Below are positions 39,960 through 63,992 of a DNA stretch of 64,000 bases, one piece after another (the stretch's first letter is position 1; each line of letters begins with the position of its first letter). Both the position numbers and the translations under genes were made by a program. The DNA comes from Lelliottia wanjuensis (GTDB lineage Bacteria; Pseudomonadota; Gammaproteobacteria; Enterobacterales; Enterobacteriaceae), in assembly GCF_030238365.1 (NCBI RefSeq), contig NZ_JASSOT010000061.1, forward strand, positions 124,001 to 188,000, in the 5' to 3' direction. The notes under the pieces were generated by a model. The model was not told where the DNA came from. It searched no databases and saw nothing but the letters and a program-made list of their open reading frames with translations.

Positions 39960-40054
39960 TTCTTGGGTTTTGTTAACCTATCTTTGGTACTTAGGGTGTA
40001 AGAAACGCTCAACGAATTGCGCTGAAATGATCGTTTTTCCAATAAATGCTTACG

Positions 40055-42426: not shown

Positions 42427-42435
42427 GGGCTGTCC

Positions 42436-45845: not shown

Positions 45846-46118
45846 TTAATGCTTTTTCTGAATCAGCAGGTATGGATGGGACCAGTCAGTAACCTCCTCG
45901 TATGAAACAAACCCATCTTGTTCCAATGCGCACACACCTGAATGGGTTCTTGCATAATCATACACTGCTCTACTTTCCAGTCCCTGTAACATGTGCGACA
46001 ACAGCTTTCGGCGCATCACATCTGACTTCCTGCGTTTACGCGACGCCACATCTTTAAAGGTGATGTTGAATAGTTGCCCTATCACATTGGCAACGCATTT
46101 GCCGTAACGGTAAGTGGA
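45846..46118 (-). pseudogene. C-terminal fragment of a palm-domain polymerase-like gene
   Basis: The frame from a stop at 46119 reads STYRYGKCVANVIGQLFNIT, then RRKLLSHMLQGLESRAVYDY, then a Cys/Ala-rich end with ALEQDGFVS. It aligns closely with the last 90 or so residues of the 494-residue protein at 54841-56325 (RYGLCVRNAVGQNFNCTY, MRRKLLAHMIQGLESRAVYD, ALEHDGFVS). Only the C-terminal end survives, and the HDG motif has become QDG. An ATG-started frame of 79 codons (from 46085) exists but is probably not a functional gene. Confidence 0.78.
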
Positions 46119-47438: not shown

Positions 47439-47498
47439 TGCTTTCTATTTGCTGTTAAATTTTAATATTTGTAATTTATTTTCAATAAAATTTAGCTA

Positions 47499-47524
47499 AA
47501 GTCCTAACCATTAGGAAAGGACTT
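47499..47524. terminator. Hairpin between convergent genes
   Basis: AAGTCCT and AGGACTT flank an inner CCTAA/TTAGG pair, giving a stem between the HNH gene and the convergent phage-like operon. No strong T-run follows on either strand. Confidence 0.45.
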
Positions 47525-47557
47525 CATTGACGATAGCATATATAAAAATAATAACAG

Positions 47558-48301: not shown

Positions 48302-51300
48302 TTAGTTATCCCACAAAAGTTTGTTGGCAAAGGCCAATCCATAATCATCAATATTGGAAGGTGGTCTGATAGAACCTGCATTACTAGGCATAATAGGAGC
48401 AGGTTGTGAGGGAATAACAGATGGATTATTATTTCTTGTATTTTTCAATACTTCATTCTCACGAACCAACGTAGAAGAACTAGCGTCCAGTTGAGCAGGT
48501 TTAGCAATAATACCAGAAGCAGTAGGTGTTAATGGTGTATCACCAGCTACAATACCGGATGCTCCTGATGGTGTTATTCCGGTCTGTTGTCCAGTATTCA
48601 TCGGCATAACCGCTTGGCTTGTTGTATCAACCGCAGTAATACCTTTAGCCGCATTTTCTTTAGTTAATACAGCTTTTGCTACGGCCCATTCTCGTTGATA
48701 TCTAGCGGTCATAGATCTTTGTGTACTTATAGGACTCTTGCTGTAATCCTGCTGGATATGAGCAATTCTATCTTGATAAATAGTATCAATCATTTTTGCT
48801 TGGTCTTGTGGGCCATCACCTGATATACCAGCCTCTTTAAATGCCCTTTCAAGCTTGCTGGCACCACCCGATGAGCCATAAGCAACTGCTGACACATAAG
48901 CGGCTTCCTGCACTGCTTTAGACTGTTTATTTATATCAACACCAGTATTCTTCTGAACTCTGTTTACCACAGGGTTATAATGAGTAGCTATTATGAAATC
49001 ATCCTGTGCTTTATCCATTGCAGCAGCACCTTCAGAAGTTGAAGTAAATTGCCTGTATGCTGCATTGAATGCAGGTGTTCCAGGAGTCAAGCCAGCGAAT
49101 TGTCCCGCAAAAGCCTTAGCTTGAGGACTACGCATAAACTCACCCATAGTACCTGTTTTGGATGCTATCTGATGCCCACCGTAACTAACTCCGCCTATAT
49201 CCCCAGCCCCTGTTGAAATAGACCGTACATTACCGCGAGATTCAAAATAACCAGACATACCCCCCCGTTCATTACCTGCCATGACTGTATTAGCAACATC
49301 CTCAGCTTCATTTCCGGTATTTGAGACAGTTGATTTAATACTATTTAATGCTTCTGGGGGGAGTACTCCTCCCGGCTGATTTTTTGTAGGTCCAAAAAAT
49401 CCACCACCCCCACCGCCAAACATATTAGCAAGCCAATCCGATACATTACCACCAGTCATAGCGTCTGCTGACACACCCATTGTAACCATAGGGAATATAC
49501 CAGTAGGTAACACATTGGACACCCACCCCATTAGCTTATTCACTAAACTATGTTGGCCTGCATCATCTACATAAGCATCTGCTTTAGCACTGCCATCTAT
49601 TCCGGCATCAATAAGGTCGCTGACTTGTTTTTGATCTTGTGCGGGTAATGAATCAATAGCAGTAATAGATTTCTGTGTTTTAATCTGCAATGAATCGATT
49701 GAATTAGACGGTTGATTTTCGCCACCTGTAGATGTGATAGATTTACCCACATCTTGTTTCTGGTTAATCACATCCAGAGCAACACCAATACCCTGAACAT
49801 TTTTAGCATCCACACCTTTCTGGTTAGGTATCACGGTTGTATTAACATAATCCATAATGGCAGAGTATACTTCTGGATAGGCAGAAGGCATAGCAGAACT
49901 CTCCATTATCTGCATCAGCCTCTGTACATTACCACCTGCGGTATTATTAATATAGTCACTGATATTCTGAGTGCTCAGACAACTTTTCTGATACTTGCGG
50001 AGTTCTTTTATATCATCTTCGTCATATTTTCCGCTTTTAATCATTTCATCTACATACATAGCCTCAGCTATTGGGCCTTTTTTCTTGATAGCGTCAGGAA
50101 TATTATCTTGTGGGTCTTCAAATAAACCTGTTGCGCTTGAGCCAAGGAAACTACCGCCAACAGAACCGATTATTCCGCCGATTACACCACCAATAGCAGT
50201 ACCGACAATAGGAACCACTGAACCAATAGCAGCACCTGCTGCGGCTCCAGCCCAAGCGCCTCCCATACTACCAACGGTAGAACCTACGGCTTCTTTGCGT
50301 TCAGCAGTATTATTGGCCGTCGCATAATCGTAAGCACCAACCGCCACGTTAGCTACACCGCTTGCCTTACCTAATACTGATTTAGCGCCTTTAGCTAATG
50401 CACCACCAGCACCCTCACCTAAAATGCTTGTTGCTGCTTTGGTAGCACCTTTACTGGATAATGCAGAGACACCTGTTTTAGCGGCAACCTTAGGAGCGGC
50501 TGCATAAATAGCAGCTTCCGTTAACGGATTAGCAGATGATTCAGGAACAGCAACCCCTTGTGGTGTCATGGGAGCCGCTTCTGCGTCATCACCTGACAAC
50601 ATAAGGTAGCCAGCACCGGCAGCCGCTGCTAATTTACCCCACTTACCACCTTTACCAAGAAGTTTCAGTAATCCTTTGCTACCCCCACCTCTTAATGCGG
50701 CACGTTCAGCAGCTCCAATAGCTCCAGATTCAGCAGCACGAGTTGCTGTACCACCACCGCGTTTGAATAAGCCTTTAGCTTTACCCGCTACTTTCGCTCC
50801 TACATATCCAGCTCCAATACCTGCTATATCAGAAACCTTATCTGAGATTGCACCATCGGTAGCCATATCTACTACATTGAGGCCAGGTATCATACTCATC
50901 AAGAGTTTGGTTATATCACTGCCGTGCTCACTGGCTTTACCGGCTGCGGCTCCACCTACAAAAGCGGCGCCGCTTTTCAGTTTGGCCTTAGTGGTGTCAG
51001 ACAGTCCACGTTTCTTCAATCCAAATTCTATTTGTTGTAGGGTATGCAGGGTTCTTGTTTGCAGGGAACTGGTTTCAAGATGCTTTAATAAAGGTCCCAG
51101 CTTATTTAACTTGGCCGACATAGCATCAGATGAATTAGCAATTGCCTTTAATTGATTCAACTCATTAAGAAATTTATTACTATCCCCCAAACTAACGATG
51201 ATATTATTCAGCGCATGTATCTGCGTCTTCTCATCTTTAGATGAATCCTGAGCTATTTTAATTAAGTCATTAAGCCTATCGACAGATTGAACCTCACTAT

Positions 51301-51889
51301 TCATCCTATCAACTAACTCTATAAGCTGTTTTGTAGATTGTTCAGTTAAATCTGTCTGATTTTTAGTAAATGCGAGGAGTTCCTTGAATGCGGGACTCTT
51401 ATCAAACATGCCAGAGCTGCCAATAGCCTGAGCCAATTGTTTGGCAGAATGCAATTTAGCCTGCTTACTGGTGTCGCCATTCACAGCCTTAACAATATCA
51501 TCAGATAAATTAGATAGGCTTGTCTGCAAAACCGAGTTTAAGTCAGTAGATAATCCCGTCATCTTTTGGAGGTATTTATCTAACTGTTGATACTGAGTAG
51601 CATTTAATTTCTGCCCCTGTTGAAACAACCGGGCCAGTTCAGCATCCTGCGTTTTACTAAGTGCCTGTGCTACCTTTAAACTTTCCAATTGTTTCTTCAA
51701 CAGGGTAGCAGCTTGCTCATTACCCGTGGTAATAGCAGAGTCGAGATCTTTAGTTACCCTCTTGATAACCTTTTGGCTCACCATAGAGCTTTGTTGGACA
51801 GCCTTATTAATGGCTTCTATAAATTTCTTATCTTGTTTAACAGAGCCGCCGCTGGCAGCCCTGGCTAATCTGGAAACGCCGATGTACAT
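48302..51889 (-). CDS. Tape-measure-like protein with C-terminal lysozyme-like domain
   Basis: The 1195-residue protein has an N-terminal coiled-coil/helical region (about 15-310), then long Gly/Ala-rich hydrophobic stretches: SGAAFVGGAAAGKA, KLAAAAGAGYLMLSG and AGAAAGAAIGSVVPIVGTAIG. These glycine-zipper stretches and the helical start are typical of phage tail tape-measure and ejected virion proteins. At about 885-1050 lies ESRGNVRSISTGAGDIGGVSYGG..., a Glu-led SYGGHQ segment like those of phage lysozyme domains, with AVAYGSSGG further on. The C-terminal 120 residues are Pro/Ser/Thr-rich. Start follows CGGAGATAATA. It is the second gene of a three-gene operon. No capsid, portal or terminase gene occurs in the window. 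Confidence 0.6.
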   Translation of the reverse strand: MYIGVSRLARAASGGSVKQDKKFIEAINKAVQQSSMVSQKVIKRVTKDLDSAITTGNEQAATLLKKQLESLKVAQALSKTQDAELARLFQQGQKLNATQYQQLDKYLQKMTGLSTDLNSVLQTSLSNLSDDIVKAVNGDTSKQAKLHSAKQLAQAIGSSGMFDKSPAFKELLAFTKNQTDLTEQSTKQLIELVDRMNSEVQSVDRLNDLIKIAQDSSKDEKTQIHALNNIIVSLGDSNKFLNELNQLKAIANSSDAMSAKLNKLGPLLKHLETSSLQTRTLHTLQQIEFGLKKRGLSDTTKAKLKSGAAFVGGAAAGKASEHGSDITKLLMSMIPGLNVVDMATDGAISDKVSDIAGIGAGYVGAKVAGKAKGLFKRGGGTATRAAESGAIGAAERAALRGGGSKGLLKLLGKGGKWGKLAAAAGAGYLMLSGDDAEAAPMTPQGVAVPESSANPLTEAAIYAAAPKVAAKTGVSALSSKGATKAATSILGEGAGGALAKGAKSVLGKASGVANVAVGAYDYATANNTAERKEAVGSTVGSMGGAWAGAAAGAAIGSVVPIVGTAIGGVIGGIIGSVGGSFLGSSATGLFEDPQDNIPDAIKKKGPIAEAMYVDEMIKSGKYDEDDIKELRKYQKSCLSTQNISDYINNTAGGNVQRLMQIMESSAMPSAYPEVYSAIMDYVNTTVIPNQKGVDAKNVQGIGVALDVINQKQDVGKSITSTGGENQPSNSIDSLQIKTQKSITAIDSLPAQDQKQVSDLIDAGIDGSAKADAYVDDAGQHSLVNKLMGWVSNVLPTGIFPMVTMGVSADAMTGGNVSDWLANMFGGGGGGFFGPTKNQPGGVLPPEALNSIKSTVSNTGNEAEDVANTVMAGNERGGMSGYFESRGNVRSISTGAGDIGGVSYGGHQIASKTGTMGEFMRSPQAKAFAGQFAGLTPGTPAFNAAYRQFTSTSEGAAAMDKAQDDFIIATHYNPVVNRVQKNTGVDINKQSKAVQEAAYVSAVAYGSSGGASKLERAFKEAGISGDGPQDQAKMIDTIYQDRIAHIQQDYSKSPISTQRSMTARYQREWAVAKAVLTKENAAKGITAVDTTSQAVMPMNTGQQTGITPSGASGIVAGDTPLTPTASGIIAKPAQLDASSSTLVRENEVLKNTRNNNPSVIPSQPAPIMPSNAGSIRPPSNIDDYGLAFANKLLWDN

Positions 51890-51891
51890 TA

Positions 51892-52119
51892 TTATCTCCG
51901 TTTCATGGCTTCATATGCTTCCGGAAATAGCTGACGGAAATCAGTAAAACTTTCGATAAGATCAAAATCTGGCTTTCCATAGTCTGTAAGAAGCCCCTTT
52001 ACTGGAGTCTCTCCCTCTAACAATAAATCATCAACGAACTTAGTATCCTTTAAGTGATCTGGAACTACACTTTTATCTATGCTTCGCTCTTTCCTATTTT
52101 TACTATTCTCAACACTCAT
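51892..52119 (-). CDS. Small hypothetical protein upstream of the tape-measure-like gene
   Basis: The 75-residue protein starts MSVENSKNRKERSIDKS behind AAGGAATAACAA. It has a basic N-terminus and an acidic, helical C-terminal half (LIESFTDFRQLFPEAYEAMKRR). It ends 2 bp before the tape-measure-like gene. In tailed phages this position is often held by a tail assembly chaperone; I see no sequence proof of that. Confidence 0.55.
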   Translation of the reverse strand: MSVENSKNRKERSIDKSVVPDHLKDTKFVDDLLLEGETPVKGLLTDYGKPDFDLIESFTDFRQLFPEAYEAMKRR

Positions 52120-52469
52120 TTGTTATTCCTTATATAAATAATGGCTCAATTGGCTGTTTATTAAGTATTGACATGAATAAAATTGACTTAAATCAAATAA
52201 AATGAATTTATTTAAACATTCCTAATATCTGTATATTTGATGATACTCATATATAAGGACACATAATTCACCCTCTTTATGTAACCTCACTTAACTTATC
52301 AATATTAAAAGGAATTATCATGACTTCAACTGCTTAAATGCGCATATTTACTCATGCCAATTTACAGCTATAATAGTAGCTAATTACAGCATATTGAAAT
52401 TTAAAATCATGATGAACCATATTTGCTATACCAGAATAATCCTTGATACGTATTATTATAGGTTTTCAA
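52120..52469. promoter_or_regulatory. Divergent AT-rich promoter region
   Basis: This 350-bp gap separates the minus-strand phage-like operon from the plus-strand XRE operon. It is very A+T-rich. TATAAT at 52369-52374 is a credible -10 for the plus operon, and AAATAAA..TTTATTT near 52195-52215 is a dyad. A five-codon frame (ATG at 52320) sits behind AAAAGGAATTATC, possibly a leader or chance. No other gene is supported. Confidence 0.5.
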
Positions 52470-52730
52470 ATGCAAAGAAAAATGACACCTCATGATGTTC
52501 AAGAAAAAATACGTTCGACCTTGAGACTCACCAGAAAAAGATTGAAACTATCACAAAAAGAATTAGCTGATAAATCAGGCGTACCGCTAGGTACTATTAA
52601 AAAGTTTGAACATACAGGTAATATTTCGTTTAGACAATTTATACTGATCTATGCAGCTCTTAATGACATAAGCCAGATAGTTTATTTAACTAGCAGTCAA
52701 GATATTAAAAAACAGCCAACGAACAATTAA
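52470..52730 (+). CDS. XRE-family HTH regulator
   Basis: The 86-residue form starts MQRKMTPHDVQEKIRSTL. A helix-turn-helix is plain in LKLSQKELADKSGVPLGTIKKFEHTGNISF, like Cro/C1-type repressors and HipB. It heads a plus-strand operon and faces the phage-like operon across a shared promoter region, so it may control both. A TTG start at 52443 is possible but has no better ribosome site. Confidence 0.8.
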   Translation: MQRKMTPHDVQEKIRSTLRLTRKRLKLSQKELADKSGVPLGTIKKFEHTGNISFRQFILIYAALNDISQIVYLTSSQDIKKQPTNN

Positions 52731-52772
52731 ATAGATATTAATATCCACAATAAGAAATCGGGATAACATCAA

Positions 52773-53123
52773 ATGAATATAATCAGCTTTGCCAACACTC
52801 GTCCATACGATGTATATAAATGGTCCACAGAATACTTCTTACAGAATGGATGCTCAAAGAATAAAATCCAACTCATTCATCCCAACACCAGATATAACAA
52901 AAGGGCAAAAGTCATTATATGTTGGTTCATTGAAGCCCTCCAGAAGGACATAGAACTTATAAATAAAGAGGATGCTATTATTATCTTAATGGATAACAGA
53001 GAGACTGAACTGGAGAGATATGGGATTTTAATTGCAGATACGCTTAGGCCGAACAAATGTACAGATAAAGCCAGCTTCACATCTATTATATCAAGCGCGT
53101 GTTGCAATTTACCAAAATCATAA
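52773..53123 (+). CDS. Hypothetical protein
   Basis: This 116-residue protein starts MNIISFANTRPYDVYKWSTE and is not recognised. It has alternating hydrophobic strands (AKVIICWFIEAL, DAIIILMDN) that suggest an alpha/beta fold, and a Cys pair near the end. It lies between the XRE gene and the sigma-like gene in the same orientation. Confidence 0.6.
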   Translation: MNIISFANTRPYDVYKWSTEYFLQNGCSKNKIQLIHPNTRYNKRAKVIICWFIEALQKDIELINKEDAIIILMDNRETELERYGILIADTLRPNKCTDKASFTSIISSACCNLPKS

Positions 53124-53190
53124 ATAACTTTTATTCATCTAAAATCATCAATACCACATTCAACAAAATAGTAGAAACCCAGGGTATCTC

Positions 53191-54270
53191 ATGACTCGTA
53201 TTCACCAATTAATCAGGAAGCACCTCAATATTAGAAAAGCATCAGTTCAAGATAAAATAACCGTGGTTAGCCTCGCGTACATACTAAAAGTAGCATCGGC
53301 AAAAGATCTAAATGCTGTAGTTTTACGTTACACAAGTCAGAATGCTTTAGCCTATCGAACAAGCCTCAATCATCATTACGTGATTAAGAATATTAAATTC
53401 TGGTTGTGGTATTGCATATACAGCGGATTGAATGAAGAAGAAGCTGACGAGGCGTCTGATAACTTCGATATCCGTCCTAAAGATTTCCCTCTTTATCACC
53501 TGCTGAAACGGAGTCAATACTGGAAGGCCATTAAACAATTAAGCCTCAGCCAAACAAAAGAAGGTGGATTGCGTTATAAGGCCTGGTCTAGCTTACATCG
53601 GTTTGAGAGTATTATTCAAAAAGTCCTGAAAGAACAAGAGACTTATTTAAAGAAGTATATCCACAAGAAGCTTAAATTCCTAACCTTCAGTGGATATAGC
53701 GATGTTGAAGATATTTATTTTGAATTGCAGTACGCCGGGGTGATGGGTCTTTACAAGATGTATCCTATGTTCGACAGCAGGTTACATCTTACAAATATTT
53801 ATAAAAGGTCAATTCAAAATTTTGGGTGCAACCAGATTAAGCACCATACGACACAGGGACGTTCAGTACTAGACAGGCAAGCAGACGGTACATTCCAGAG
53901 CAGAAAGGTATCACTTGATTCATTAATGTCTGTAGATTCAACTATTGAAGGTGACTACAGCTTATCAGGTGAAGACGAAGACACAAACGCGCTATCCTAT
54001 GAAGATATTAACAATAAATTAGCTGTCCGAAAAGCACTGGCCAAAGTTACACATAAAGAGAAGCGGTTATTGGTTCTTTTAAAAGGAAACTATGATAAAG
54101 GGTTTTCATCATATCTACATAAGAACGGTCACAGTGACTCAGACGAATTATTCGACAAGATGCTCAAGTCAGGAATTCATAAATATGTAAATCTCGCAGC
54201 CAAATATCTAAAGATGAGTGTCTATGATGCTCACTCTTGTCTTATAAAATTAAGAGCAGTCGTTCAGTAA
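53191..54270 (+). CDS. Putative sigma-factor-like protein
   Basis: The 359-residue protein looks like a divergent sigma-70 family member. SDVEDIYFELQYAGVMGLYK followed by MYPMFDSRLHLTNIYKRSIQ and NFGCNQIKHHTTQGRSVL resembles region 2 (GL-x-K-x(4)-FD and an I-x(3)-R-based recognition helix) and the start of region 3. The C-terminal end (AAKYLKMSVYDAHSCLIKLRAV) could be a region 4 HTH. The N-terminal 170 residues are basic and not recognised. It is probably a late-gene or element-specific transcription factor. The call rests on pattern only. Confidence 0.45.
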   Translation: MTRIHQLIRKHLNIRKASVQDKITVVSLAYILKVASAKDLNAVVLRYTSQNALAYRTSLNHHYVIKNIKFWLWYCIYSGLNEEEADEASDNFDIRPKDFPLYHLLKRSQYWKAIKQLSLSQTKEGGLRYKAWSSLHRFESIIQKVLKEQETYLKKYIHKKLKFLTFSGYSDVEDIYFELQYAGVMGLYKMYPMFDSRLHLTNIYKRSIQNFGCNQIKHHTTQGRSVLDRQADGTFQSRKVSLDSLMSVDSTIEGDYSLSGEDEDTNALSYEDINNKLAVRKALAKVTHKEKRLLVLLKGNYDKGFSSYLHKNGHSDSDELFDKMLKSGIHKYVNLAAKYLKMSVYDAHSCLIKLRAVVQ

Positions 54271-54310
54271 CCATTAAAAATCACACTAATATTATTAAAT
54301 AGAGGATGCT

Positions 54311-54730
54311 ATGCAACCCACCTTATTTGTAGTTGGAACATTAGCTGATATTAATTTCGTCCATACCATTCTTGAAGCTATTGACTTTAATGTTACAGCC
54401 AGCAATCTTTATAAGATTAATAAAATACGATACAAACATATTAATAATGAAGAAAAACACGAAGTATGTCACATTGATAAAGATGTCAAATTGCAAGGAT
54501 GTATATTTGCATTGCCTACCGGTCACGATTTTAACATCATGAAAGAATTAATTGTGTTGAATCTTGAAATGCAATGCACAGATCGAAAGCATAAAATTAA
54601 GTTTTACTATAACATAGCACAAATAGATAAACTCTCAGATATTATACAGTTCAGATCAGGTGATGCTACATTCAGCAGTTTCCTTAAAACTTGCAGTCAA
54701 TATAATACACTAATACAAGATTATAAATAA
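54311..54730 (+). CDS. Hypothetical protein
   Basis: This 139-residue protein starts MQPTLFVVGTLADINFVHTI behind GAGG. It is not recognised. The early segment LFVVGTLADINFV resembles the first strand and loop of an alpha/beta fold. It is the last gene of the plus-strand operon, 40 bp after the sigma-like gene, and ends at a large bidirectional hairpin. Confidence 0.55.
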   Translation: MQPTLFVVGTLADINFVHTILEAIDFNVTASNLYKINKIRYKHINNEEKHEVCHIDKDVKLQGCIFALPTGHDFNIMKELIVLNLEMQCTDRKHKIKFYYNIAQIDKLSDIIQFRSGDATFSSFLKTCSQYNTLIQDYK

Positions 54731-54840: not shown

Positions 54841-56325
54841 TCAATATTTCCTCACAAGTTTAAGATATGGATGTTTCCACTCCTTTTCAATATTCAGCTT
54901 CCGGTTACTAACAAACCCATCGTGTTCCAATGCACACACACCTGAATGGGTTCTTACATAATCATACACAGCCCTACTTTCTAACCCTTGAATCATATGA
55001 GCCAGTAGTTTCCTGCGCATCTGCTGTGGTTGTCGTTTGACTCCAGGTTCTTTATAAGTACAGTTAAAATTCTGACCTACTGCATTTCTTACACACAGGC
55101 CATATCGGTTTGTTTTTCCTGTCGAACAATAATGATTTACCAGCTTTGTCAAAGCTTTTCGCAAGGGTTTCATAAAAATCCTCCACTGCTCAAGAACTGT
55201 CCTGCATTTATCCTCACCAAGAAACTTATTTAATTTTTTAAACACAGATGCTTTAGGGGATAAACTGACAGTCCCTGCATTAAAAATGGTTGCAAATCTG
55301 ATCTCCTTTGCATGTTCCTCTTCAACCTCCAATTTATTTATAATATAATCTGTATCTAATCGCTTCAGGCATTTATCTGAAATCCCTATTTTATTAAATT
55401 CATGCCTCAGGATCTCAAGCTGACAACTTTTTATATCATAATTATAAGCAGATTCTAGACATGCCTTTTTCATATTGCCCGGAAGATATTGATATCCCGT
55501 ACCTACTTCAAATGATCGCCCCCCTAGCTTTGCTGATTTATAAGCTTGTTTATACTTTACTATCAATGGTTCCAAAGAAACGATTTGTGATTCAACAGAG
55601 CAAAGGTGTGATATAAAATTATAATAATACCCCATGTTGACAGGGGTTGGATTCTGATTGCAATAATCCATCAAAGCATCTATGTTAATTGATATATATC
55701 CTATACTGTAATATACTTCCTTCAAAACATCCCTGAAGGATGAATCTTTAACATTTCGCTCAGATGTCATATGTTTAATCTTTTGTTTTCCTACATTATT
55801 ATTTAATATGTCATTTAGTTTTTTTATACAACCCCGCTTATTATAAATATCAGTCAAGTATGTATATCGGTCATCTTTAGATAAATATTCCTCTCGTTCT
55901 TCAGGAAAGAGTTGAGCCAAAAAACCCTTTGATAAGGAAAACTCCCTACATTTTCTTGTGCAGTAATCATTTTCGATAATTTTAATTACCCCTTCTTTTG
56001 CTAACTCCTCAAGAGCTCTGTCAAAGGGTAAATTTCTGGATTGTTTGAATACTTCTGGCGCAACATCTATGCCTAGTTCATAAGGGAACGGTACAGAATA
56101 TGTCCATTCTTTATCACCTTTAAACCTTGCTCTCTTCTTTGTGTTTCTACTCACCGTGGCACTACAGATCAGATGCTGAAGAAAATATGCAATAGCCGAG
56201 TAGTATTTTCTTTTATCACACGCTTTCCTGCGGTTTGCAATAGGGATACTGAAAATTATACGCTTATATGCAGTTAATGTTCTATCTGTAACTAAGATAT
56301 TTTTCTCTGTGCTATATGGTTTCAT
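54841..56325 (-). CDS. Palm-domain polymerase-like protein
   Basis: The 494-residue protein has features of family A / T7-RNA-polymerase-like single-subunit polymerases. A motif A-like block SAYNYDIKSCQLEIL holds Asp297; a motif B-like block HAKEIRFATIFNAGTVS follows (Lys340 onwards); and HMIQGLESRAVYDYVRTHSG with ALEHDGFVS gives motif C (HDG, Asp469). Both catalytic Asp are present. The first 250 residues are basic and unrecognised. Whether it makes DNA, RNA or primers is unknown. A decayed relative lies at 45846-46118. It is monocistronic on the minus strand, convergent with the sigma-like operon. Confidence 0.5.
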   Translation of the reverse strand: MKPYSTEKNILVTDRTLTAYKRIIFSIPIANRRKACDKRKYYSAIAYFLQHLICSATVSRNTKKRARFKGDKEWTYSVPFPYELGIDVAPEVFKQSRNLPFDRALEELAKEGVIKIIENDYCTRKCREFSLSKGFLAQLFPEEREEYLSKDDRYTYLTDIYNKRGCIKKLNDILNNNVGKQKIKHMTSERNVKDSSFRDVLKEVYYSIGYISINIDALMDYCNQNPTPVNMGYYYNFISHLCSVESQIVSLEPLIVKYKQAYKSAKLGGRSFEVGTGYQYLPGNMKKACLESAYNYDIKSCQLEILRHEFNKIGISDKCLKRLDTDYIINKLEVEEEHAKEIRFATIFNAGTVSLSPKASVFKKLNKFLGEDKCRTVLEQWRIFMKPLRKALTKLVNHYCSTGKTNRYGLCVRNAVGQNFNCTYKEPGVKRQPQQMRRKLLAHMIQGLESRAVYDYVRTHSGVCALEHDGFVSNRKLNIEKEWKHPYLKLVRKY

Positions 56326-56903: not shown

Positions 56904-58592
56904 TCAAAGATTAAAATTCTGATTTACCTTCTTTTGATAATGCAGGATAACATCATTGAATAAGTCGATTATTTTTTTAAAATTAGAAAAATCAATTTCC
57001 TTATGATTTTGCTTTACAATTATCTCCGCAAACTTTCTTTTTCCATAATGCTGTTCTTTATCAAATTTATTCTCAGCCGTGAAAGTTTTACTACCAAGCG
57101 TCTTCGAGAGTGTCTTACTATCAAAGAAATCCTCTATTTTTGACTCTTTCTTATCACCAATAAGCGGTGTTTTTACTATATAAAGGTTCTCACACACATA
57201 AGTAAATCCGTCACAAACTTCTCTGAAGTCGCTAAAATCACGGTTTATAATGCCATCTATACTACTTGAACCACTATCATTATCTAGTAATACTATTACA
57301 GGAAATACCTTTGGCGGGGAAGTGTATCTCCTCATTGACTGCCGATATGTTTTAATAAATTTTATGTTATTGCCTGTCCCATCTGTTATATCCAACAGTT
57401 TTCCCAATGTCCGGGTCTGCTTATAGATGGATAAATCTAATCTTTTTTTGGCTCCTTTTCTAATCAATTGAAGTTCAGGATAGCTATCAACAAGGCTCTG
57501 GAAAGCATATTTCAGATATATATTATCTGTTTCTCCTTCACATATGATGATCGTGCTTTTATTTGCAGCAAAGTTTTTATAGAACAAAAAAGAAGCATAC
57601 ATCCTTTCGAAAGAATCATGCTGAGATATATGTTTACACCCGCGTGTACCATTAACACCTGCTCTGATATTATATATAAAACTGAGCATACCATTTAGTC
57701 TTTCTAAACTGACATTCTCTTTTTTACCATCAATAGAAATAAAAGCAGTATTGATCTTAAAGAAACTATCTGCCATTGCGCGTACAAGATGCTTCACTTC
57801 ACTTTTCACGCTTACCTTTTGATTAACAACTAATCCTGTGACATCTTGTCGTGAATTACTTAATTGTATCCTCGTCTTGCTATCATTAACTTTAAATCCT
57901 GCTCTATCGATCTCATTCCTTAATTTTTTACCAATAATGATCTGTATGTCATTGATGCTTGCAATTGATTCAGGGAAGGTTTTCTGATTGGTGGAAAATG
58001 TAATATCATCAACATAGCGAGTATAAAAACATTTATTCCTTTTAGCCAAGGAACTAAGTTTTACATCTAATATTTGACCTATTAGATTAGATATTATCGG
58101 TGAACAAGGACTTCCCTGAGGGAGTTTATTTTCATTGCAAGCTATTTGAGCAATAACGGATGCAACCTTTTCTGTTAATGCAAAGTTCTTATTGTAAATA
58201 AAATACCCTCTAACTCTACCAAAGTTAATGGTATCGAAAAAATTTTCAAGATCTATATTTAGAACTAGGTTTTTATTCTTATGCTTATAGGCATTCGTAA
58301 GAATGGATTTACCCTTAACAAAGCCATGTGCTGAAGTTTCAGTTTCCCTATCTTTACTAATCTGGTCAACACATTCCTGTAACCCCTTGGCAAGTCGTTT
58401 CTGGAGTTCTTTGAGTTTTCGTTCAGGAGCAGTAATACACCGATCTTCTCCACTTTTCTTTTTTATCTTAAATGTATTATATTTTACCTTACTTTTATAT
58501 ATCGTATAGGTTAATGCGGCAGGAGAACAACCAAGAATATGGGCAACATCAGATATGTTCTTAGCTTGTTTTAATTTTGTCAAAAATGACAT
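56904..58592 (-). CDS. Retron reverse transcriptase fused to TOPRIM (Ec67/Eco2-like)
   Basis: The RT makes the branched msDNA from the adjacent non-coding RNA; the TOPRIM part is the probable effector in antiphage defence. The 562-residue form starts MSFLTKLKQAKN behind AAAGG; an upstream in-frame Met at 58655 lies inside the ncRNA. RT motifs: retron NAYKH (NAxxH), IDLENFFDTI, LPQGSPCSPIISNL, catalytic YVDD in YTRYVDDITFS, and the retron VTG in RQDVTGLVVN. TOPRIM: IICEGETDNIYLKYA (Glu) and VIVLLDNDSG (DxD). The order and length match the Ec67 RT. Confidence 0.94.
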   Translation of the reverse strand: MSFLTKLKQAKNISDVAHILGCSPAALTYTIYKSKVKYNTFKIKKKSGEDRCITAPERKLKELQKRLAKGLQECVDQISKDRETETSAHGFVKGKSILTNAYKHKNKNLVLNIDLENFFDTINFGRVRGYFIYNKNFALTEKVASVIAQIACNENKLPQGSPCSPIISNLIGQILDVKLSSLAKRNKCFYTRYVDDITFSTNQKTFPESIASINDIQIIIGKKLRNEIDRAGFKVNDSKTRIQLSNSRQDVTGLVVNQKVSVKSEVKHLVRAMADSFFKINTAFISIDGKKENVSLERLNGMLSFIYNIRAGVNGTRGCKHISQHDSFERMYASFLFYKNFAANKSTIIICEGETDNIYLKYAFQSLVDSYPELQLIRKGAKKRLDLSIYKQTRTLGKLLDITDGTGNNIKFIKTYRQSMRRYTSPPKVFPVIVLLDNDSGSSSIDGIINRDFSDFREVCDGFTYVCENLYIVKTPLIGDKKESKIEDFFDSKTLSKTLGSKTFTAENKFDKEQHYGKRKFAEIIVKQNHKEIDFSNFKKIIDLFNDVILHYQKKVNQNFNL

Positions 58593-58616
58593 GAGCAAAC
58601 CTTTATATAGAGAATA

Positions 58617-58747
58617 GTGGGCACTATAGAAACTCTTTAGCACAGCGTGAGGCATTTACCTCTGGCGTAAAGCATACTTAGGGCGTTGCCTCTAACATTT
58701 TTTTCACATATCACGAAACATGATACAAAATCTATCTATAGGCCCAC
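58617..58747 (-). ncRNA. Candidate retron msr-msd RNA
   Basis: On the minus strand GTGGGCCTATAGA (58747-58735) and TCTATAGTGCCCAC (58630-58617) are complementary with one bulged base, like the a1/a2 repeats that bracket every retron RNA. Inside are a small stem (TATCA/TGATA), then a long hairpin: TTAGAGGCA (58695-58687) with TGCCTC..CTAA (58654-58637, 8-base bulge), fit for the msd. It ends 25 bp before the RT start, as usual. The branching G cannot be fixed by eye. Confidence 0.72.
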
Positions 58748-58864: not shown

Positions 58865-59911
58865 TTACCTAACTAACAGGCCTAAACGTTTCAGGCACTT
58901 AGTCCACAGCTTCCAAACCTGCTCCTTATCAAATAATTCGATCTTGTGTTTCTCAATGATGCCTTCAATTTTCCTTGAGATACGCCGTGTGTTCTGAGAA
59001 AGCCTCATATGCCGTTTCCATGCATTAAGGGTAAAACTCTTTGGCCTTTCCCGGAAGAACTTATCGATCTCCAAATAGGTATCCAGCCCTGTTTTGTACA
59101 CCTCAAGACGTTCAAACGGATTAGCCATCTTATGCAATTCCTTCAGCATCACAGGCTCTTTCTGCTTACCTTTCTTCCTCTTACTTCCCGGTTTAGCATC
59201 TGGCTTAACACGGGCTTCTATGCGCAAAAACATCGGGTGGTCGTTCAGATTGATCTCCAGCTTCCCATCCACCTCACGGAATTTACGGGTTGATCCAGTG
59301 ATATCAACTTTCTCATAAACCAGCATATGTAGATCAGACCTCACGCTGCCCAAACGAACTCCTGGCAATCCATCTGTACTAAGGTAGCTATCATCTCTGC
59401 GTATCCTCTTGACCCCCCAGATATAGTCATCTAGCCAGCAGCCATAAAGATCCAACGCCACATCGACCTGTGTTATCCATGCGGTTCTTAGCAGAGCCAA
59501 CAGTTCCCCCTTCATGCGGTCATCCAGCCACTTAATTAACTTATCCATTTCTTCTGGTTCCAGATGCTGAGGCCGTATATCAAGACGAACAGCAGCAGCA
59601 TGTTTATTAATAGGGTCAAAATCGATATGTATTAACATGCGGCCATTCTTAAAAATAAGAATCGCCCACCGATAACGATCCGGTCTCTTATCTTTGTGCT
59701 TATTCTTGATTAAGCGAGTTTCATAGTGTTTCCAAGATTTATTCCCTGTATACCTTAACCTCTTGTATAGAAACTTATATAATTTTGATTCTACATTCAC
59801 ATCCAACATGACGGTTATTTTGTCGGCCCGTATTTTCATTTTATGGCCTTCATTGCTATAACCTGCATCTTGAGATCCACAGCGTTCTACGTTCTTTTTG
59901 TTCAGAAGCAT
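58865..59911 (-). CDS. Replication initiator, Rep_trans-like
   Basis: The 348-residue form starts MLLNKKNVERCGSQ behind CAGGA; other possible starts are 59956 and 59842. RWAILIFKNGRMLIHIDFDP and AWITQVDVALDLYG resemble rolling-circle initiators of the Rep_trans class, in which the strand R/T-x-V/I-D-x-A-x-D-x is typical; PMFLRIEARVKP fits the following core strand, and a Tyr-containing segment (ERLEVYKTGLDTYLEI) could carry the nicking Tyr. Function: nicks an origin to start element replication, or acts as a conjugation-like relaxase. It lies between the retron and alpA. Confidence 0.6.
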   Translation of the reverse strand: MLLNKKNVERCGSQDAGYSNEGHKMKIRADKITVMLDVNVESKLYKFLYKRLRYTGNKSWKHYETRLIKNKHKDKRPDRYRWAILIFKNGRMLIHIDFDPINKHAAAVRLDIRPQHLEPEEMDKLIKWLDDRMKGELLALLRTAWITQVDVALDLYGCWLDDYIWGVKRIRRDDSYLSTDGLPGVRLGSVRSDLHMLVYEKVDITGSTRKFREVDGKLEINLNDHPMFLRIEARVKPDAKPGSKRKKGKQKEPVMLKELHKMANPFERLEVYKTGLDTYLEIDKFFRERPKSFTLNAWKRHMRLSQNTRRISRKIEGIIEKHKIELFDKEQVWKLWTKCLKRLGLLVR

Positions 59912-60016
59912 AATAATTCCTGATTTTAAGAAATAGAGAGCCATGCTGATTTTCATAAGCTCCCTATTCAATTTATCTTGTGTTTATAACGGGCTATTAG
60001 AGGAACTAACTTTGAG

Positions 60017-60211
60017 TTACCCAGCCAGTTGTACTTTCTGCAAGTTCTCAATGTGTTGCTCAATCTCATCCAGACGCCATGCAACACGTCGTGCTCCAAT
60101 CTGCACCGGAGCGGGTAACAACCCAGCTTTGATCTGCCGATACACTGTTGCACGTGAAATTGGATAGATTTTCATGAGTTCTTTGAGAGAAATCAGTTGT
60201 ACGTTCTTCAT
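60017..60211 (-). CDS. AlpA-family regulator/excisionase
   Basis: The 64-residue form starts MKNVQLISLKELMKIYPISR, a MerR-like winged HTH of the AlpA family, with ATVYRQIKAGLLPAPVQIGARRVAWRLDEIEQHI in sequence (pieces quoted: ATVYRQIKAGLLPAP, GARRVAWRLDEIE). AlpA proteins activate integrase or excision genes and are typical of P4-like satellites and PICIs. It lies upstream of the initiator gene and next to the palindrome array. A longer start at 60256 has no ribosome site. Confidence 0.92.
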   Translation of the reverse strand: MKNVQLISLKELMKIYPISRATVYRQIKAGLLPAPVQIGARRVAWRLDEIEQHIENLQKVQLAG

Positions 60212-60292
60212 TGCTTTGTGCCTTGAGTTACGTGCAGGAATTGCACGTAGAGGCATTTACAACTTACTGTTTTTCCTTGATTCATGCATTCC

Positions 60293-60419
60293 ATGACGGT
60301 CATTGCTATAAAAAACTCGTTTATGACCGTCATCGCATATATTTTCTTGTGATGACGGTCATAGATAACAATCAATGGGAGGAGTACGCTACCATCCATT
60401 GCGGTACAATGACGGTCAT
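60293..60419. repeat. Four iterated ATGACSGTCAT palindromes
   Basis: The 11-bp dyad ATGACGGTCAT or its complement ATGACCGTCAT occurs at 60293-60303, 60323-60333, 60352-60362 and 60409-60419. Start-to-start spacings are 30, 29 and 57 bp, close to multiples of about 29. The first and last copies share the longer ATGACGGTCATTGC. They fill the divergent promoter region between alpA and the 174-residue gene and may be operators or replication iterons. Confidence 0.88.
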
Positions 60420-60451
60420 TGCCTCATAAACCAAAAGTTGCAGGGAGACGT

Positions 60452-60976
60452 ATGAAAAAAGATAGTGATGACTCTGAACAGCTCGTAGTGAAACGAAATA
60501 GCCGCAAATCTCTTGCAGAAAAATTTGGGCCATCTATAAGCTTAAACTTGCATGACGATAGCCGCGAACGGCTGGTTGAGATAGCTCAGTGGCTCAATCC
60601 TTCATATTATAATGAACTTAAGAAGACTAAAGGACTTGTACTTCGCCAAACAATCAGCAATCTAATTAACATGATTTATATTGATAGTATCTATGAACCT
60701 AAAACAAAAGCTGCTAAAACGCTTAAAAAACTGTATGAACGTCACTTTGAATTAATTAGCAATCCTGAAATTGATCTAATTAAACTAAAATCCACCTTAA
60801 CCAAGGAATATGCTAAACCTATAGATATAAAAAAAGGGAAGCTAGTTATTACCGAAAAGGGTTGGACCTATAAAGATCTAAAGCTAATTCAGGATTACCA
60901 TTGGGTTATTCAAACTATGGAAGAGCTCGATGGTATTTCACGAAAACAAGTTAAAAACACAAGCACGAAGAAATAA
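60452..60976 (+). CDS. Hypothetical protein next to the palindrome array; possible DNA-binding protein
   Basis: The 174-residue form starts MKKDSDDSEQLVVKRNSRKS behind CAGGGAGACGT; an in-frame Met at 60419 has no such site. It is Lys-rich and helical, with NLHDDSRERLVEIAQWLNPSYYNELKK resembling a ribbon-helix-helix-like start (pieces SINLHDD-like SISLNLHDDS and RLVEIAQWL). I do not recognise a family. Being next to the repeats, it is a candidate to bind them. Its 3' end overlaps the convergent integrase gene by 26 bp. Confidence 0.6.
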   Translation: MKKDSDDSEQLVVKRNSRKSLAEKFGPSISLNLHDDSRERLVEIAQWLNPSYYNELKKTKGLVLRQTISNLINMIYIDSIYEPKTKAAKTLKKLYERHFELISNPEIDLIKLKSTLTKEYAKPIDIKKGKLVITEKGWTYKDLKLIQDYHWVIQTMEELDGISRKQVKNTSTKK

Positions 60977-61871
60977 TTCGACTGGCTTCATCACTGCGCC
61001 TGTCGTACAACGCGGTAGTACTGATATCTCTGTGCCCCGCTAACTGACGCACAATGTTGACATCAGCGCCCTGCTCCAGCAGCCGGGTAATGAAAGTTCT
61101 GCGCAGGTCATGCGGAGTGAACGCTTCCAGCCCCGCTACTTCAGCTAACTGGTCAAGAATGACGGTAACACCTGCTGGTGTCAGCGCCTTCTGACCTACA
61201 AGCCCACTGCGGCAGATACCGGTGAATATTGCGTTACCGTTGCCCTTAGCCTTCAGCCACGCCTGTATCGCACGGGCAACCATGGGCGACACTGTAATCT
61301 GACGATGCTTTCGCCCTTTTCCCTGCCGTACCGTCAGTGTCTGCGTTTTCGGGCAATAGTCCTTTATATCCAGCGCGACAAGCTCGCCAACGCGCAACCC
61401 CGCACCACACAGCGTAAGAACAATAGCTTTATCTCTCAACTGGCGTAACTTTTGCGGATGCGCTTTCGTTGCCTCAATCAACCTTTTCACTTCTTCCCTG
61501 TTCAGCGCCCTCCCTTTATTACCGCTGTCGCCTTTAACGCGCTTCACCGTCTTAATGCGAGCAAGAGAATCAGCATCCAGCAGTTGCAGGTTGAAAGCCG
61601 TCTGGGTGACACCTTTCAGTGCCGCCAGTACCATATTGACCGTCGCCACAGCGTAAGTATTGTCCAGCAGGGTCGCCCTGACTTTAGCCACGTGCTCATA
61701 GCGTAACTGCGTCCAGTCATAACTATGGGCCGTTCCGTTATGCTGGAGTATGGCAGCACTCAGATTTAACAGACTCAACATGCTTTTTCTTCCGCTGACG
61801 GCAAGCCCGTTGAGATACACGTCTACCACGCTGGTTTCCTGCTGCTGCGCTGCTAATTTCAGTCGGCTCAT
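60951..61871 (-). CDS. Tyrosine recombinase/integrase
   Basis: This is a phage-integrase family recombinase. The 306-residue form starts MSRLKLAAQQQETS; a start four codons upstream (61883) is equally open. The N-terminal core-binding domain spans about 15-110. Catalytic residues are in LCGAGLRVGELVALD (Arg), HDLRRTFITRLL (His-x-x-Arg), LAGHRDISTTALYDRR (His and nucleophile Tyr). It is XerC-like in length. It is the only intact integrase in the window and is probably responsible for moving part or all of the island. Confidence 0.93.
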   Translation of the reverse strand: MSRLKLAAQQQETSVVDVYLNGLAVSGRKSMLSLLNLSAAILQHNGTAHSYDWTQLRYEHVAKVRATLLDNTYAVATVNMVLAALKGVTQTAFNLQLLDADSLARIKTVKRVKGDSGNKGRALNREEVKRLIEATKAHPQKLRQLRDKAIVLTLCGAGLRVGELVALDIKDYCPKTQTLTVRQGKGRKHRQITVSPMVARAIQAWLKAKGNGNAIFTGICRSGLVGQKALTPAGVTVILDQLAEVAGLEAFTPHDLRRTFITRLLEQGADVNIVRQLAGHRDISTTALYDRRSDEASRIISSCLCF

Positions 61872-61908
61872 AGTTAGTCTCATTAATACATGTTAAACCA
61901 AGTTACTT

Positions 61909-62352
61909 TCACACCAGCCCAAGTTCGGCCATCGAAACTGTTTGATCGCCGGCAACGATAAAGTGGTCGAGAACCCTCACATCCAGCAGTTCCATAGCCA
62001 GTTTAATTTTTTGAGTTATCCGCTTATCGGCATCGCTGGGTGAGGCTTCGTTACTGGGGTGGTTGTGGACGAGGATGAGTGCTGCGGCATTGTGCTGGAT
62101 AGTGGCTTTGATGATTTCTCTGGGGTAAACCACCGTCTGGCTTAATGTTCCCTGAAACAACTCATGGAAAGCCAGGACTCTGTGCTGGTTATCAAGCAAG
62201 AATACGCCAAACACTTCTCTTTCATATTGCGCCAGCCGGAACAGCAAATAGTCACGTACATCATCAGGTGAAAGCAGTTTGCGTCCTTTCCGTACCTGTC
62301 GCGCAAGTATGCGTTTGGCTTGCTGGATAACAGCCTGATCATTCGGACTCAT
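61909..62352 (-). CDS. RadC/JAB-domain protein
   Basis: The 147-residue protein is a short RadC family member common in genomic islands (YeeS/YkfG type). It has the metallo-site of the JAMM fold: AALILVHNHPSNEASPSDADKRIT in pieces (VHNHPSNEASPSD). The N-terminal helix-hairpin-helix of full RadC is absent. Its ATG overlaps the stop of the upstream peptidase-like gene (ATGA), so they are translated together. Function in islands is unknown. Confidence 0.9.
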   Translation of the reverse strand: MSPNDQAVIQQAKRILARQVRKGRKLLSPDDVRDYLLFRLAQYEREVFGVFLLDNQHRVLAFHELFQGTLSQTVVYPREIIKATIQHNAAALILVHNHPSNEASPSDADKRITQKIKLAMELLDVRVLDHFIVAGDQTVSMAELGLV

Positions 62353-62882
62353 GAGTTCACCTCTCCACGCTCAATAAAATAGATACCATCCGGGTAAAGC
62401 TGGAGTTTCCCTTCCTCATAGCGAAGTGAGTATCTGCTACGTGCTTTTTTCCTGTAACTGCTGCTGTCAAAGAAATATAAGTTTTGACTATCTGCATGAA
62501 TAACAACTGACCAGTGAAATTGATCGCGTATGATTATTGCCCTGCTGTCGTTGCCCTCTAAATAAGACTGGATAGCGCGAAGAATTCTTGTCTTACTCAA
62601 TGAACTTTGTGATTTGAAAGGTTGAGTGACCGTGACAGGGTATTTTCTGTATCGACTCTGAGAAAGGTCATTCAGCAATATATCCATTTGCGCGGAACCC
62701 ATACCAGTAGTTAAACATTCAATAAGAGGCCAGTGCTGGCTATAACGTTGCAACAATGATTTGAATAATGTCTTTCTTTTTATTTTATTCCCATACAGCC
62801 AGTACATCATATTGGCTATACTATAAAAACCACATAAACAATCCAGATCGCCCTGCCGTGATGGCGTTACTTTATTTTTCAT
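62349..62882 (-). CDS. Papain-like cysteine-peptidase (C39-like) protein
   Basis: The 177-residue protein has the layout of a papain-fold cysteine peptidase: QGDLDCLCGFYSIANMMYWL with Cys after Leu/Asp (candidate nucleophile, about residue 15-17), HWSVVIHAD (His) and YFFDSSSYRKK (Asp). It has no signal peptide. It is coupled to the RadC/JAB gene by a 4-bp overlap. Substrate unknown. The call rests on the Cys-His-Asp order and spacing, so a structural non-enzyme remains possible. Confidence 0.6.
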   Translation of the reverse strand: MKNKVTPSRQGDLDCLCGFYSIANMMYWLYGNKIKRKTLFKSLLQRYSQHWPLIECLTTGMGSAQMDILLNDLSQSRYRKYPVTVTQPFKSQSSLSKTRILRAIQSYLEGNDSRAIIIRDQFHWSVVIHADSQNLYFFDSSSYRKKARSRYSLRYEEGKLQLYPDGIYFIERGEVNS

Positions 62883-62964: not shown

Positions 62965-63390
62965 TTAATCCCATGATGTTATCACAGTATATATTTTCGT
63001 TTTCCAGTATCGAATAAAATTTCGCTGCCACAGCTCAAATAATTCTTCTCCGTCTTCAATCTGCATATCACCCATCATAAAGTGCCATACATAGCCATGT
63101 GACCAGCTCACATCAAACTCCTTTTCCAGCTCTGGGTATGGATGTCCCATGTAGCTAAAGTCTGTCAGATAATCGAAATGCCATTCTTCATTTCGTTTTA
63201 TCAGCCTGATTTCAACAGGATGAAACCCACCACTTTCACTGGAATAGTCATCATCGCGAAAGTTAATGACAACAGACCTTGATGCTGAATAATCAGGCCA
63301 TTGGGATAATTCGCTGTAGATGGCATTAATAAAAGCGGGACTGATGGGCAAATTTATATTGGATTGATGGATAAGCATTTCAGCTTTCAT
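62965..63390 (-). CDS. DUF2787-like hypothetical protein
   Basis: The 141-residue protein starts MKAEMLIHQSNINLPISPAF and contains VVINFRDDDYSSESGGFHPVEIRLI (pieces NFRDDDYS, GGFHPVEI) and a Trp-rich end, features of the DUF2787 family found on mobile elements. No function is known. It lies 82 bp upstream of the peptidase-like gene in the same orientation. Confidence 0.65.
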   Translation of the reverse strand: MKAEMLIHQSNINLPISPAFINAIYSELSQWPDYSASRSVVINFRDDDYSSESGGFHPVEIRLIKRNEEWHFDYLTDFSYMGHPYPELEKEFDVSWSHGYVWHFMMGDMQIEDGEELFELWQRNFIRYWKTKIYTVITSWD

Positions 63391-63638: not shown

Positions 63639-63992
63639 TTATTTAGTATTCAGGGATAATTCAGCCGCTACCTGTTCCATAACTATTTTCAGCATTTTCT
63701 CGCGTGAAGAAGGCTTCATTGTTTTGAAGAGCTGAATCCAGAGATTTAATTGTTCATCACCATTAGCATGCACGTCCTGCTTTTTACTTCTTTCAGTTTT
63801 CAGACTCATTCCCGCAGCACTGATATGGTACACAAACCCCTTATGACCGGTTCGTTTCCTCTTTAACTCCGGGTGCATCTCCGCCAGCTTCTCCAGACGT
63901 AAACGCGCACCTCGTGCTGTTGAGGGCATTCCTTCCCTGCCTGCAAATCCCTCAGCCGTCAGCCACTGATCTGCATCATCGTTAATGGACAA
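63639..63992 (-). CDS. Mu-type DNA-binding domain protein (5' end uncertain at window edge)
   Basis: The visible 117 residues include DQWLTAEGFAGREGMPSTARGARLRLEKLAEM (pieces WLTAEGFAGREGMPST and ARGARLRLE), which matches the N-terminal winged helix of Mu transposase and Mu/D108 repressors. The rest is basic and helical. The most upstream codon in the window is TTG at 63992; an ATG may lie beyond the edge. It may be the regulator of the right-hand island module. The 248 bp to the next gene hold nothing I can call. Confidence 0.6.
   Translation of the reverse strand: MSINDDADQWLTAEGFAGREGMPSTARGARLRLEKLAEMHPELKRKRTGHKGFVYHISAAGMSLKTERSKKQDVHANGDEQLNLWIQLFKTMKPSSREKMLKIVMEQVAAELSLNTK

Follow-up and report, generated by a model that had tools for sequence, protein, structure and literature searches.

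What does a conserved gene do when protein family models give it no name? A stretch of 64,000 nucleotides of the Lelliottia wanjuensis genome, here referred to as the window, carries on its minus strand a gene, POL, whose product received no name from Pfam, NCBIfam or PADLOC models. The initial annotation had described it as a divergent single-subunit polymerase-like protein with motifs A, B and C, and the locus raises the question of whether POL is indeed a polymerase and which process it serves. The open reading frame proved genuine, encoding 494 aa from an ATG start. The protein and the parts of it discussed below are as follows.

54841..56325, minus strand: POL, divergent family A polymerase, 494 aa (open reading frame, AF2 model, Foldseek, VIA, 40-row alignment)
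55771..56325, minus strand: N-terminal domain, residues 1-185, tentatively a winged helix (AF2, Foldseek, VIA)
54844..55770, minus strand: thumb-palm-fingers core, residues 186-494 (Z up to 16.3 versus family A DNA polymerases)
55516..55518, minus strand: R270, invariant Arg of GGR(x8)Q(x)LP, in the Pol I 'GR..LQN.P' region (40/40; hhalign to PolA)
55435..55437, minus strand: D297, motif A catalytic Asp (40/40)
55420..55422, minus strand: Q302, at the position of the Pol I steric gate E710 (hhalign alignment; Glu in 0/40)
55306..55308, minus strand: K340, motif B Lys, Pol I K758 (40/40; Pol gamma match)
54919..54921, minus strand: D469, motif C catalytic Asp, in HDG (40/40)

The protein matched PHROG phrog_30690, a family of unknown function, at 3e-28, and so did 28 of the 30 POL members that we aligned (alignment A6; a further 40-row alignment consists of A6 plus more distant relatives). 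PF00476 (DNA_pol_A) gave no match at E ≤ 1 among the 30 members, and a search of the PDB sequences with POL as a single sequence returned two chance-level matches only. Pfam detected no exonuclease domain in the 30 members and no nuclease family above its cut-off within the POL protein. The gene is under strong purifying selection, as pairwise dN/dS was 0.07-0.13 in eight of nine POL pairs; in the ninth, the window POL against that of locus L027, synonymous sites were saturated.

Eight residues (H51, R270, N295, D297, K340, E449, D469 and G470) are invariant in the 30 members of A6. Since R270, D297, K340, E449, D469 and G470 are fixed in all 40 members of the wider alignment as well, the motifs go beyond chance, and D297, K340 and D469 do lie at the positions claimed for motifs A, B and C. 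The motif B pattern K-x7-[F/Y] is kept in 35 of 40 members, with Phe (24), Tyr (11), Asn (4) or Met (1) at position 348, seven residues past K340. Equally telling is a motif absent from the initial annotation, GGR(x8)Q(x)LP upstream of motif A, which profile-profile alignment places on the GR..LQN.P motif of Pol I. The fifth residue after the motif A Asp aligns by hhalign with the Pol I residue that gates against ribonucleotides, E710, and is Gln in 29 members, His in 7, Asn in 3, Ser in 1 and Glu in none of the 40. At the RxxxK of the fingers, Lys is present in 40/40 and Arg in 12/40 members, the window POL having E336 at the Arg position. Motifs A and C are 172 residues apart in POL, the spacing being 177 in Pol I and 275 in T7 RNA polymerase.

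A palm fold, the test named beforehand, was found in the core of the AF2 model of POL (mean pLDDT 87.1, pTM 0.64). A Foldseek comparison of this model with the PDB yielded 37 matches at E ≤ 0.001 (best, 1.1e-4), and the 50 matches listed were Pol theta, Pol I types and T7 DNA polymerase, with query TM-scores of 0.27-0.39 that are low because part of POL alone aligns. VIA-align, run on the top chains from Foldseek, gave Z-scores of 13.9-16.3 among the 50 matches listed (Pol theta, Taq, Klenow, T7 DNA polymerase and apicoplast polymerase), the best being Pol theta, with Z 16.3 and an rmsd of 3.9 Å over 276 residues within model positions 188-494. All 50 VIA matches listed are family A DNA polymerases; RNA polymerases do not occur among the matches listed (50 each) in the Foldseek and VIA comparisons with the PDB, which in itself excludes nothing. 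From the superposition, D297 and D469 would be clustered. The model further contains two thumb helices, H215-224 and H228-243, followed by strands. Fold and motifs together upheld the initial description of POL as divergent and single-subunit polymerase-like. Judged from the model and the alignment, POL very probably has a polymerase fold and is a probable catalyst, and by fold and motifs it is a member of the family A superfamily that lies outside PF00476 as modelled.

Among predicted viral structures, the best matches were the proteins of Dickeya phages JA29, JA11 and JA13 and of Erwinia phage Yoloswag, which are members of the POL family; uncultured phage proteins came next and, lower, the replication proteins of the virophages Qinghai Lake (5.3e-5) and Zamilon (3.1e-4). 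The N-terminal half had been said to match nothing recognized, and we likewise found no clear fold or sequence match for it. Modeled alone by AF2, this domain had a pLDDT of 81.6 and a mixed alpha/beta fold, and Foldseek gave nothing below E 0.13. Its best VIA match had Z 5.8, with many winged-helix proteins among the matches and plasmid initiators at 4.6-5.0; since these values are below the background of Z 7-8 stated for the tool, the weak likeness of the modeled domain to a winged helix is a lead only.

The A6 profile had 16 matches at E ≤ 10 among the PDB sequences, 13 of them DNA polymerase gamma, which aligned at motif B with a best E of 0.011. Compared by hhalign with 36 bacterial PolA sequences, the widest POL profile reached E 8e-4 at a probability of 24%, placing GRSFEVGTGYQYLP on GRLSSTDPNLQNIP, D297 on the motif A Asp of Pol I, and K340 and F348 on the Lys and Tyr of the Pol I O helix. 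With the same widest profile, eight unrelated controls gave E ≥ 0.14. The core-only profile, built without the distant relatives, stood at E 0.55 against PolA, not apart from the controls, of which HsdM scored high against the core profile (E 0.013). By hmmsearch, the wide profile reached PolA only at E 29 or worse; the decoys of the hmmsearch runs with the core and wide profiles contained family members re-read from the loci, which were identified by locus and not scored as false matches.

Kinship to T7 RNA polymerase gained no support by sequence, as hhalign of the POL profile against the single T7 gp1 sequence gave E 0.47-0.74, nothing over background. A search with PF00940 was silent in every genome and in controls alike and is therefore uninformative.

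By profile, POL is nearer to a TV-Pol than to T7 RNA polymerase. TV-Pols were described by Iyer, Abhiman and Aravind in 2008 (PMC2579912) as polymerases of mobile elements and phages that have a bihelical thumb, a hairpin Arg, a palm with two Asp and helix-turn-helix fingers with RxxxK, that lack a nuclease, that occur in mobile elements with an integrase or resolvase and that are linked to a D5-like helicase in part of the family. POL resembles them in its minimal family A core with a hairpin Arg (R270, 40/40), two Asp and the fingers Lys, in the two-helix thumb and hairpin Arg found in the AF2 model and alignment, in the absence of a nuclease fusion, and in its linkage to an integrase and AlpA within an island. 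It differs in that the RxxxK Arg is missing from the window POL (E336), that no D5 helicase lies beside the window POL (a DUF927 protein takes the place of the initiator-like protein REP in loci L031 and L037) and that the N-terminal domain is all-helical in TV-Pols and mixed alpha/beta in POL. A TV-Pol was reported in Microcystis phage Ma-LMM01 (PMC2579912). In this phage, gp030 matched the wide POL profile at E 2.5e-13 (Z=1e6) and the core profile at 0.02, and it also lacks the RxxxK Arg in the 40-row alignment. Because gp030 adjoins two transposase genes, we infer that it is the reported TV-Pol. The species abbreviations of PMC2579912 include E. coli as the only member of the Enterobacterales, and the Erwinia, Dickeya and Yersinia phages are absent from them.

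A comparable enzyme, CCPol-MP of SCCmec, was classed as a TV-Pol and primase-polymerase, and CCPol was presented there as the sole TV-Pol characterized biochemically by 2020 (PMC7581432). As far as these accounts describe it, CCPol-MP is, like POL, a family A polymerase that lacks an exonuclease and is encoded in the replication operon of its integrative element (PMC7581432, PMC10061031); in contrast to POL, it keeps the Pol I gate Glu and a PolA annotation (PMC7581432). CCPol is also described with a small single-stranded DNA-binding partner beside it, whereas no small open reading frame is widely common beside POL in 16 elements. The family A section of a 2026 survey of bacterial DNA polymerases covers PolA1, PolA2, PolA3 and PolA1-like enzymes, and our literature search found no paper on the POL group. 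We conclude that POL is a variant of the TV-Pol-like family A polymerases rather than a separate kind.

A POL match was present in 7 of 149 genomes of the same family, own genome included, and 84,980 scanned species genomes yielded 19 confirmed loci, 18 from Enterobacterales and one from a Desulfobacula MAG. On plasmids, matches were found in an E. coli plasmid island and in two small Polaromonas plasmids (L012 and L013), where the POL relative occurs with RepA_C, ParA and a recombinase-family gene, POL and RepA_C being adjacent in one of the two. One Polaromonas relative is annotated as 'Clp protease N-terminal domain'.

Among phages, tblastn returned 69 records, 40 of which cover at least 80% of POL at 22-27% identity, with relatives in phages of Erwinia, Dickeya and Yersinia; matches at the weak end of the list, such as tape measure proteins (E 8), are due to chance. 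Viral scans with the POL2 (a second POL type, see below), Vibrio and Polaromonas versions gave no confirmed relatives. We searched 11 POL-bearing phage records, nine of them larger than 200 kb, for other polymerases. PF00476 was above its cut-off in 11/11 (in pieces in Ma-LMM01), so that POL is a second family A enzyme there, and neither a family B polymerase (0/11) nor Pol III alpha (0/11) was found. Of the eight Erwinia, Dickeya and Yersinia records, six have two genes upstream of POL, one of about 370 aa and one of about 180-230 aa, and in the other two the analyzed stretch stops within the shorter upstream gene; three such upstream proteins, when tested, had no known function. An annotated RNase HI gene directly follows POL in two Vibrio phages (L023:5220-5879 and L025:4538-5188), a position that would suit RNA primer removal. 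The jumbo-phage relative QQO90367 (L022:904-2571) is annotated, probably wrongly, as a 'putative helicase', and the annotated POL start of phage AD1 (L019:1933) seems too far downstream of the start of the open frame.

A phylogenetic tree placed 13 of 14 island POLs in one supported clade and the jumbo-phage and Yoloswag POLs in another. These separate clades give no support to a recent transfer of POL between the islands and jumbo phages, L041 being unplaced. Several branches were flagged as long, and since they meet, the deeper order of the tree is unsafe.

The element genes that accompany POL in the window are as follows.

56904..58655, minus strand: retron Ec67-type RT-TOPRIM, cargo in the slot between REP and POL (NF038237, 1.7e-196; PADLOC I-C)
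58865..59971, minus strand: REP, initiator-like protein with Rep_trans-like motifs (13/19 loci; motif and weak profile match)
60017..60256, minus strand: AlpA-type regulator (PF05930, 1.2e-10)
60419..60976, plus strand: 185-aa protein of unknown function on the opposite strand (related open reading frame in L038 only, 35%)
60951..61883, minus strand: XerC-like tyrosine recombinase (PF00589, 1.5e-30)
61909..62352, minus strand: RadC (PF04002, 2.9e-43)
62349..62882, minus strand: 177-aa conserved element protein (16/19 loci)
62965..63390, minus strand: DUF2787 protein (PF10980; 15/19 loci)
63639..63992, minus strand: conserved element protein whose open reading frame continues past the window (tblastn versus loci)

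POL belongs to a recurrent Enterobacterales island with DUF2787, RadC, an integrase, AlpA and an initiator-like protein. When the window genes were compared by tblastn with 25 loci, of which the 19 confirmed ones were counted (some truncated by contig ends), the 177-aa protein was detected in 16, DUF2787 in 15, REP in 13, RadC in 11, and the XerC-like integrase and AlpA in 9 each. The gene order in the Enterobacterales loci, where detected, is DUF2787, 177-aa protein, RadC, integrase, AlpA, REP, slot and POL. Exceptions are L029, L030, L038 and L043, which have the first gene (g117) in inverted orientation and diverged in sequence and in which tblastn detected neither RadC nor the window-type integrase; in the Desulfobacula locus (L045), a relative of the 177-aa protein is located past POL. 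Across 16 elements, the open reading frames most widely common within 2.5 kb of POL are REP (11) and AlpA (8), others of at least 40 aa being common to at most 5 of the 16, and downstream ones to at most 2. Opposite-strand frames placed like 60419..60976 are present in other loci, and relatives of the retron RT-TOPRIM were found by tblastn in none of 25 other loci.

The initial annotation had placed an initiator and a sigma-like protein in the same element as POL. The initiator-like gene held up, REP being present in 13 of 19 loci; the sigma-like gene (53191..54270) is not conserved with POL. It was rejected as a partner because it had no match in the 25 loci, four of them shorter than 4 kb, and it occurs in one of 295 family genomes, that of Lelliottia wanjuensis itself; the gene is outside the POL system. 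REP had no convincing Pfam match, no match in the plasmid collection and one chance-level match in the PDB sequences, and a search of its own genome with PF02486 did not reach it. Its conserved pattern (ALD, LG....Y-x-K and FLR-x-E-x-R) resembles that of the Rep_trans protein L118, which passes the Pfam cut-off, and hhalign gave E 0.09 against L118 and 5.6e-4 against the sub-threshold Rep_trans protein L119. A 280-aa protein and a DUF927 protein replace REP in L031 and L037, and POL occurs without a window-type REP in 3 of 15 loci with called open reading frames, among the matches listed. No helicase or SSB-like partner was found beside POL in the window.

On its flanks, the island is bounded by what we take to be the fhlA side and mutS. 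The arm-binding tyrosine integrase beyond the window, presumably of P4 type, adjoins the gene that we take to be mutS. A search for a duplicated site at the island ends gave no common 14-mer between the two stretches compared. The left part of the island (window 38872-45713) is defense-rich, with a Fic-domain gene, an AAA ATPase and its small neighbor, HsdM and HsdS. Window 46650-54730 contains genes whose products resemble phage proteins, many of them those of jumbo phages, such as the sigma-like gene at 53191-54270 (33% to Vibrio phage GR11A), a 247-aa protein at 47558-48301 (24% to a PmgG-like head protein of a P. putida phage) that occurs in one of 295 family genomes, and a 1195-aa protein at 48302-51889, the C-terminal domain of which is 33-34% identical to Erwinia jumbo-phage proteins.

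The window also holds part of a second POL gene.

45846..46085, minus strand: C-terminal remnant of a POL of another lineage (84-87% to L032-L037; one stop in a 96-residue match)

The QDG reported for a decayed copy is present here, but the remnant is not a duplicate of the window POL. Its identity is 84-87% to C-termini in the L032-L037 lineage versus only 59% to the window POL, so that it derives from another lineage; moreover, it adjoins hsdM, as POL does in L036. Lineage and hsdM adjacency, as read from the sequence, together suggest that an earlier, second element was probably present, was lost and left this remnant as its trace. POL was found lost or broken in several islands. The remnants are C-terminal pieces (L002, L006, L008/L010, L009, L015 and L040:11495-11692); no N-terminal-only piece was found in the plasmid, family-genome and species-genome scans, and L044 is a short piece from the interior of the gene. 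Recombination of cargo or elements may have its boundary at the 3′ end of POL. A second divergent type, POL2, occurs in L014, L007, L011 and L040 (7769-9163), the last having both types, and a gene of about 285 aa without a Pfam match (L040 copy) precedes it in L014 and L040.

The explanation that we consider moderately probable is that POL serves replication of its island as a DNA primase/polymerase, together with the initiator-like REP. As a divergent family A polymerase of TV-Pol type, POL would be catalytically competent and would serve to replicate its mobile island: after excision, REP would expose single-stranded element DNA, POL would lay primers and/or copy the exposed strand, and its N-terminal domain might grip the template or origin. 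Being Rep_trans-like, REP would probably be an initiator of the nicking or rolling-circle type. Since the Pol I gate Glu is absent, the substrate could be dNTPs, rNTPs or both; the GR..Q.LP motif and the ranking of folds, read from alignment and model, favor the DNA-polymerase side. The presence of initiator genes of differing types beside POL (REP in islands, RepA_C in plasmids) points to a role in replication. Against such a role, the POL phages show no obvious need for further primer or DNA synthesis, as all 11 have their own family A polymerase and one, fHe-Yen9-02, has a DnaG-type primase about 6 kb from POL. The explanation is also weakened by the missing helicase or SSB-like partner beside the window POL, the low scores behind the family assignment of REP, the loci that have POL but no window-type REP, the islands in which POL is lost or broken, and the PolA comparisons that stayed at control level (core profile in hhalign, wide profile in hmmsearch).

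The best-surviving alternative, in our view unlikely, makes POL an RNA polymerase of the single-subunit type, or an RNA primase, that would transcribe or prime the element as the T7 and N4 enzymes do. The lack of the gate Glu in 40/40 members and the DNA polymerase already present in the phage relatives agree with it, and so does a T7-like RNA polymerase model at rank 47 (E 2.0e-3) in the viral fold list. Phages with a regular DNA polymerase may also encode divPolA2, an extra divergent PolA that, like POL, has its own N-terminal domain and no exonuclease, and that its authors suggested to be a DNAP or RNAP (PMC11348598). One divPolA2 representative, AUR84708, was not found with the wide POL profile (hmmsearch E 720 at Z=1e6), and hhalign to POL gave E 0.003 over 14 columns only. 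However, the background-level score against the one T7 RNA polymerase sequence, the DNA-polymerase-like GR..Q.LP motif and A-to-C spacing, and the 50 listed VIA matches, all DNA polymerases, argue against an RNA polymerase.

A bolder and rather unlikely reading regards the islands as jumbo-phage satellites and POL as their dedicated gate-less primase-polymerase, which would start chains de novo with ribo- and deoxynucleotides and so replicate or prime the island while a jumbo phage infects the cell; its jumbo-phage cousin would have a parallel role next to the phages' own family A polymerase. It is based on the POL cousins in jumbo phages, on the jumbo-phage-like genes in the island and on the likeness to the I55-like Pseudomonas islands transduced by a jumbo phage (PMC12595487). 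As outlined in that source, these islands share a tyrosine integrase, AlpA, RadC in many, defense cargo and the absence of recognized transfer genes, and have a Gp2-like protein as a feature; they differ in the Pseudomonas host and the tmRNA site, and the word 'polymerase' is absent from the main text. Against the satellite explanation, the sigma-like and 247-aa genes are each present in a single one of 295 genomes, that of Lelliottia wanjuensis itself, and the tree gives no sign of recent exchange with phages.

That POL is a defense or counter-defense polymerase carried as cargo, akin to RT- or polymerase-based anti-phage systems, is suggested by its place among retron Ec67, type I restriction genes, Mrr and AAA genes, but we consider it quite unlikely: POL has no PADLOC match, it behaves like backbone by recurring after REP in loci with differing surroundings, and its relatives occur in phages and small plasmids. 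Least probable is a repair or gap-filling polymerase completing the element ends after excision or integration, with which the lack of a detected exonuclease domain, the other family A polymerase of the phages and a Holliday junction resolvase gene near POL in two phages are consistent, but from which the co-occurrence with different initiator types (REP and RepA_C) points away, towards replication.

POL represents a conserved polymerase family under selection, so far unnamed, in Enterobacterales, phages and small plasmids, whose members have to date been labeled 'unknown function' in PHROG, 'hypothetical protein' or, once, 'putative helicase'. It extends the TV-Pol idea to the Enterobacterales, a group of easy genetics, and the absent gate Glu makes the question of DNA versus RNA directly testable. 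POL also offers a handle on the replication of islands with RadC, AlpA and defense cargo, one Pseudomonas type of which is described as being carried by a jumbo phage (PMC12595487).
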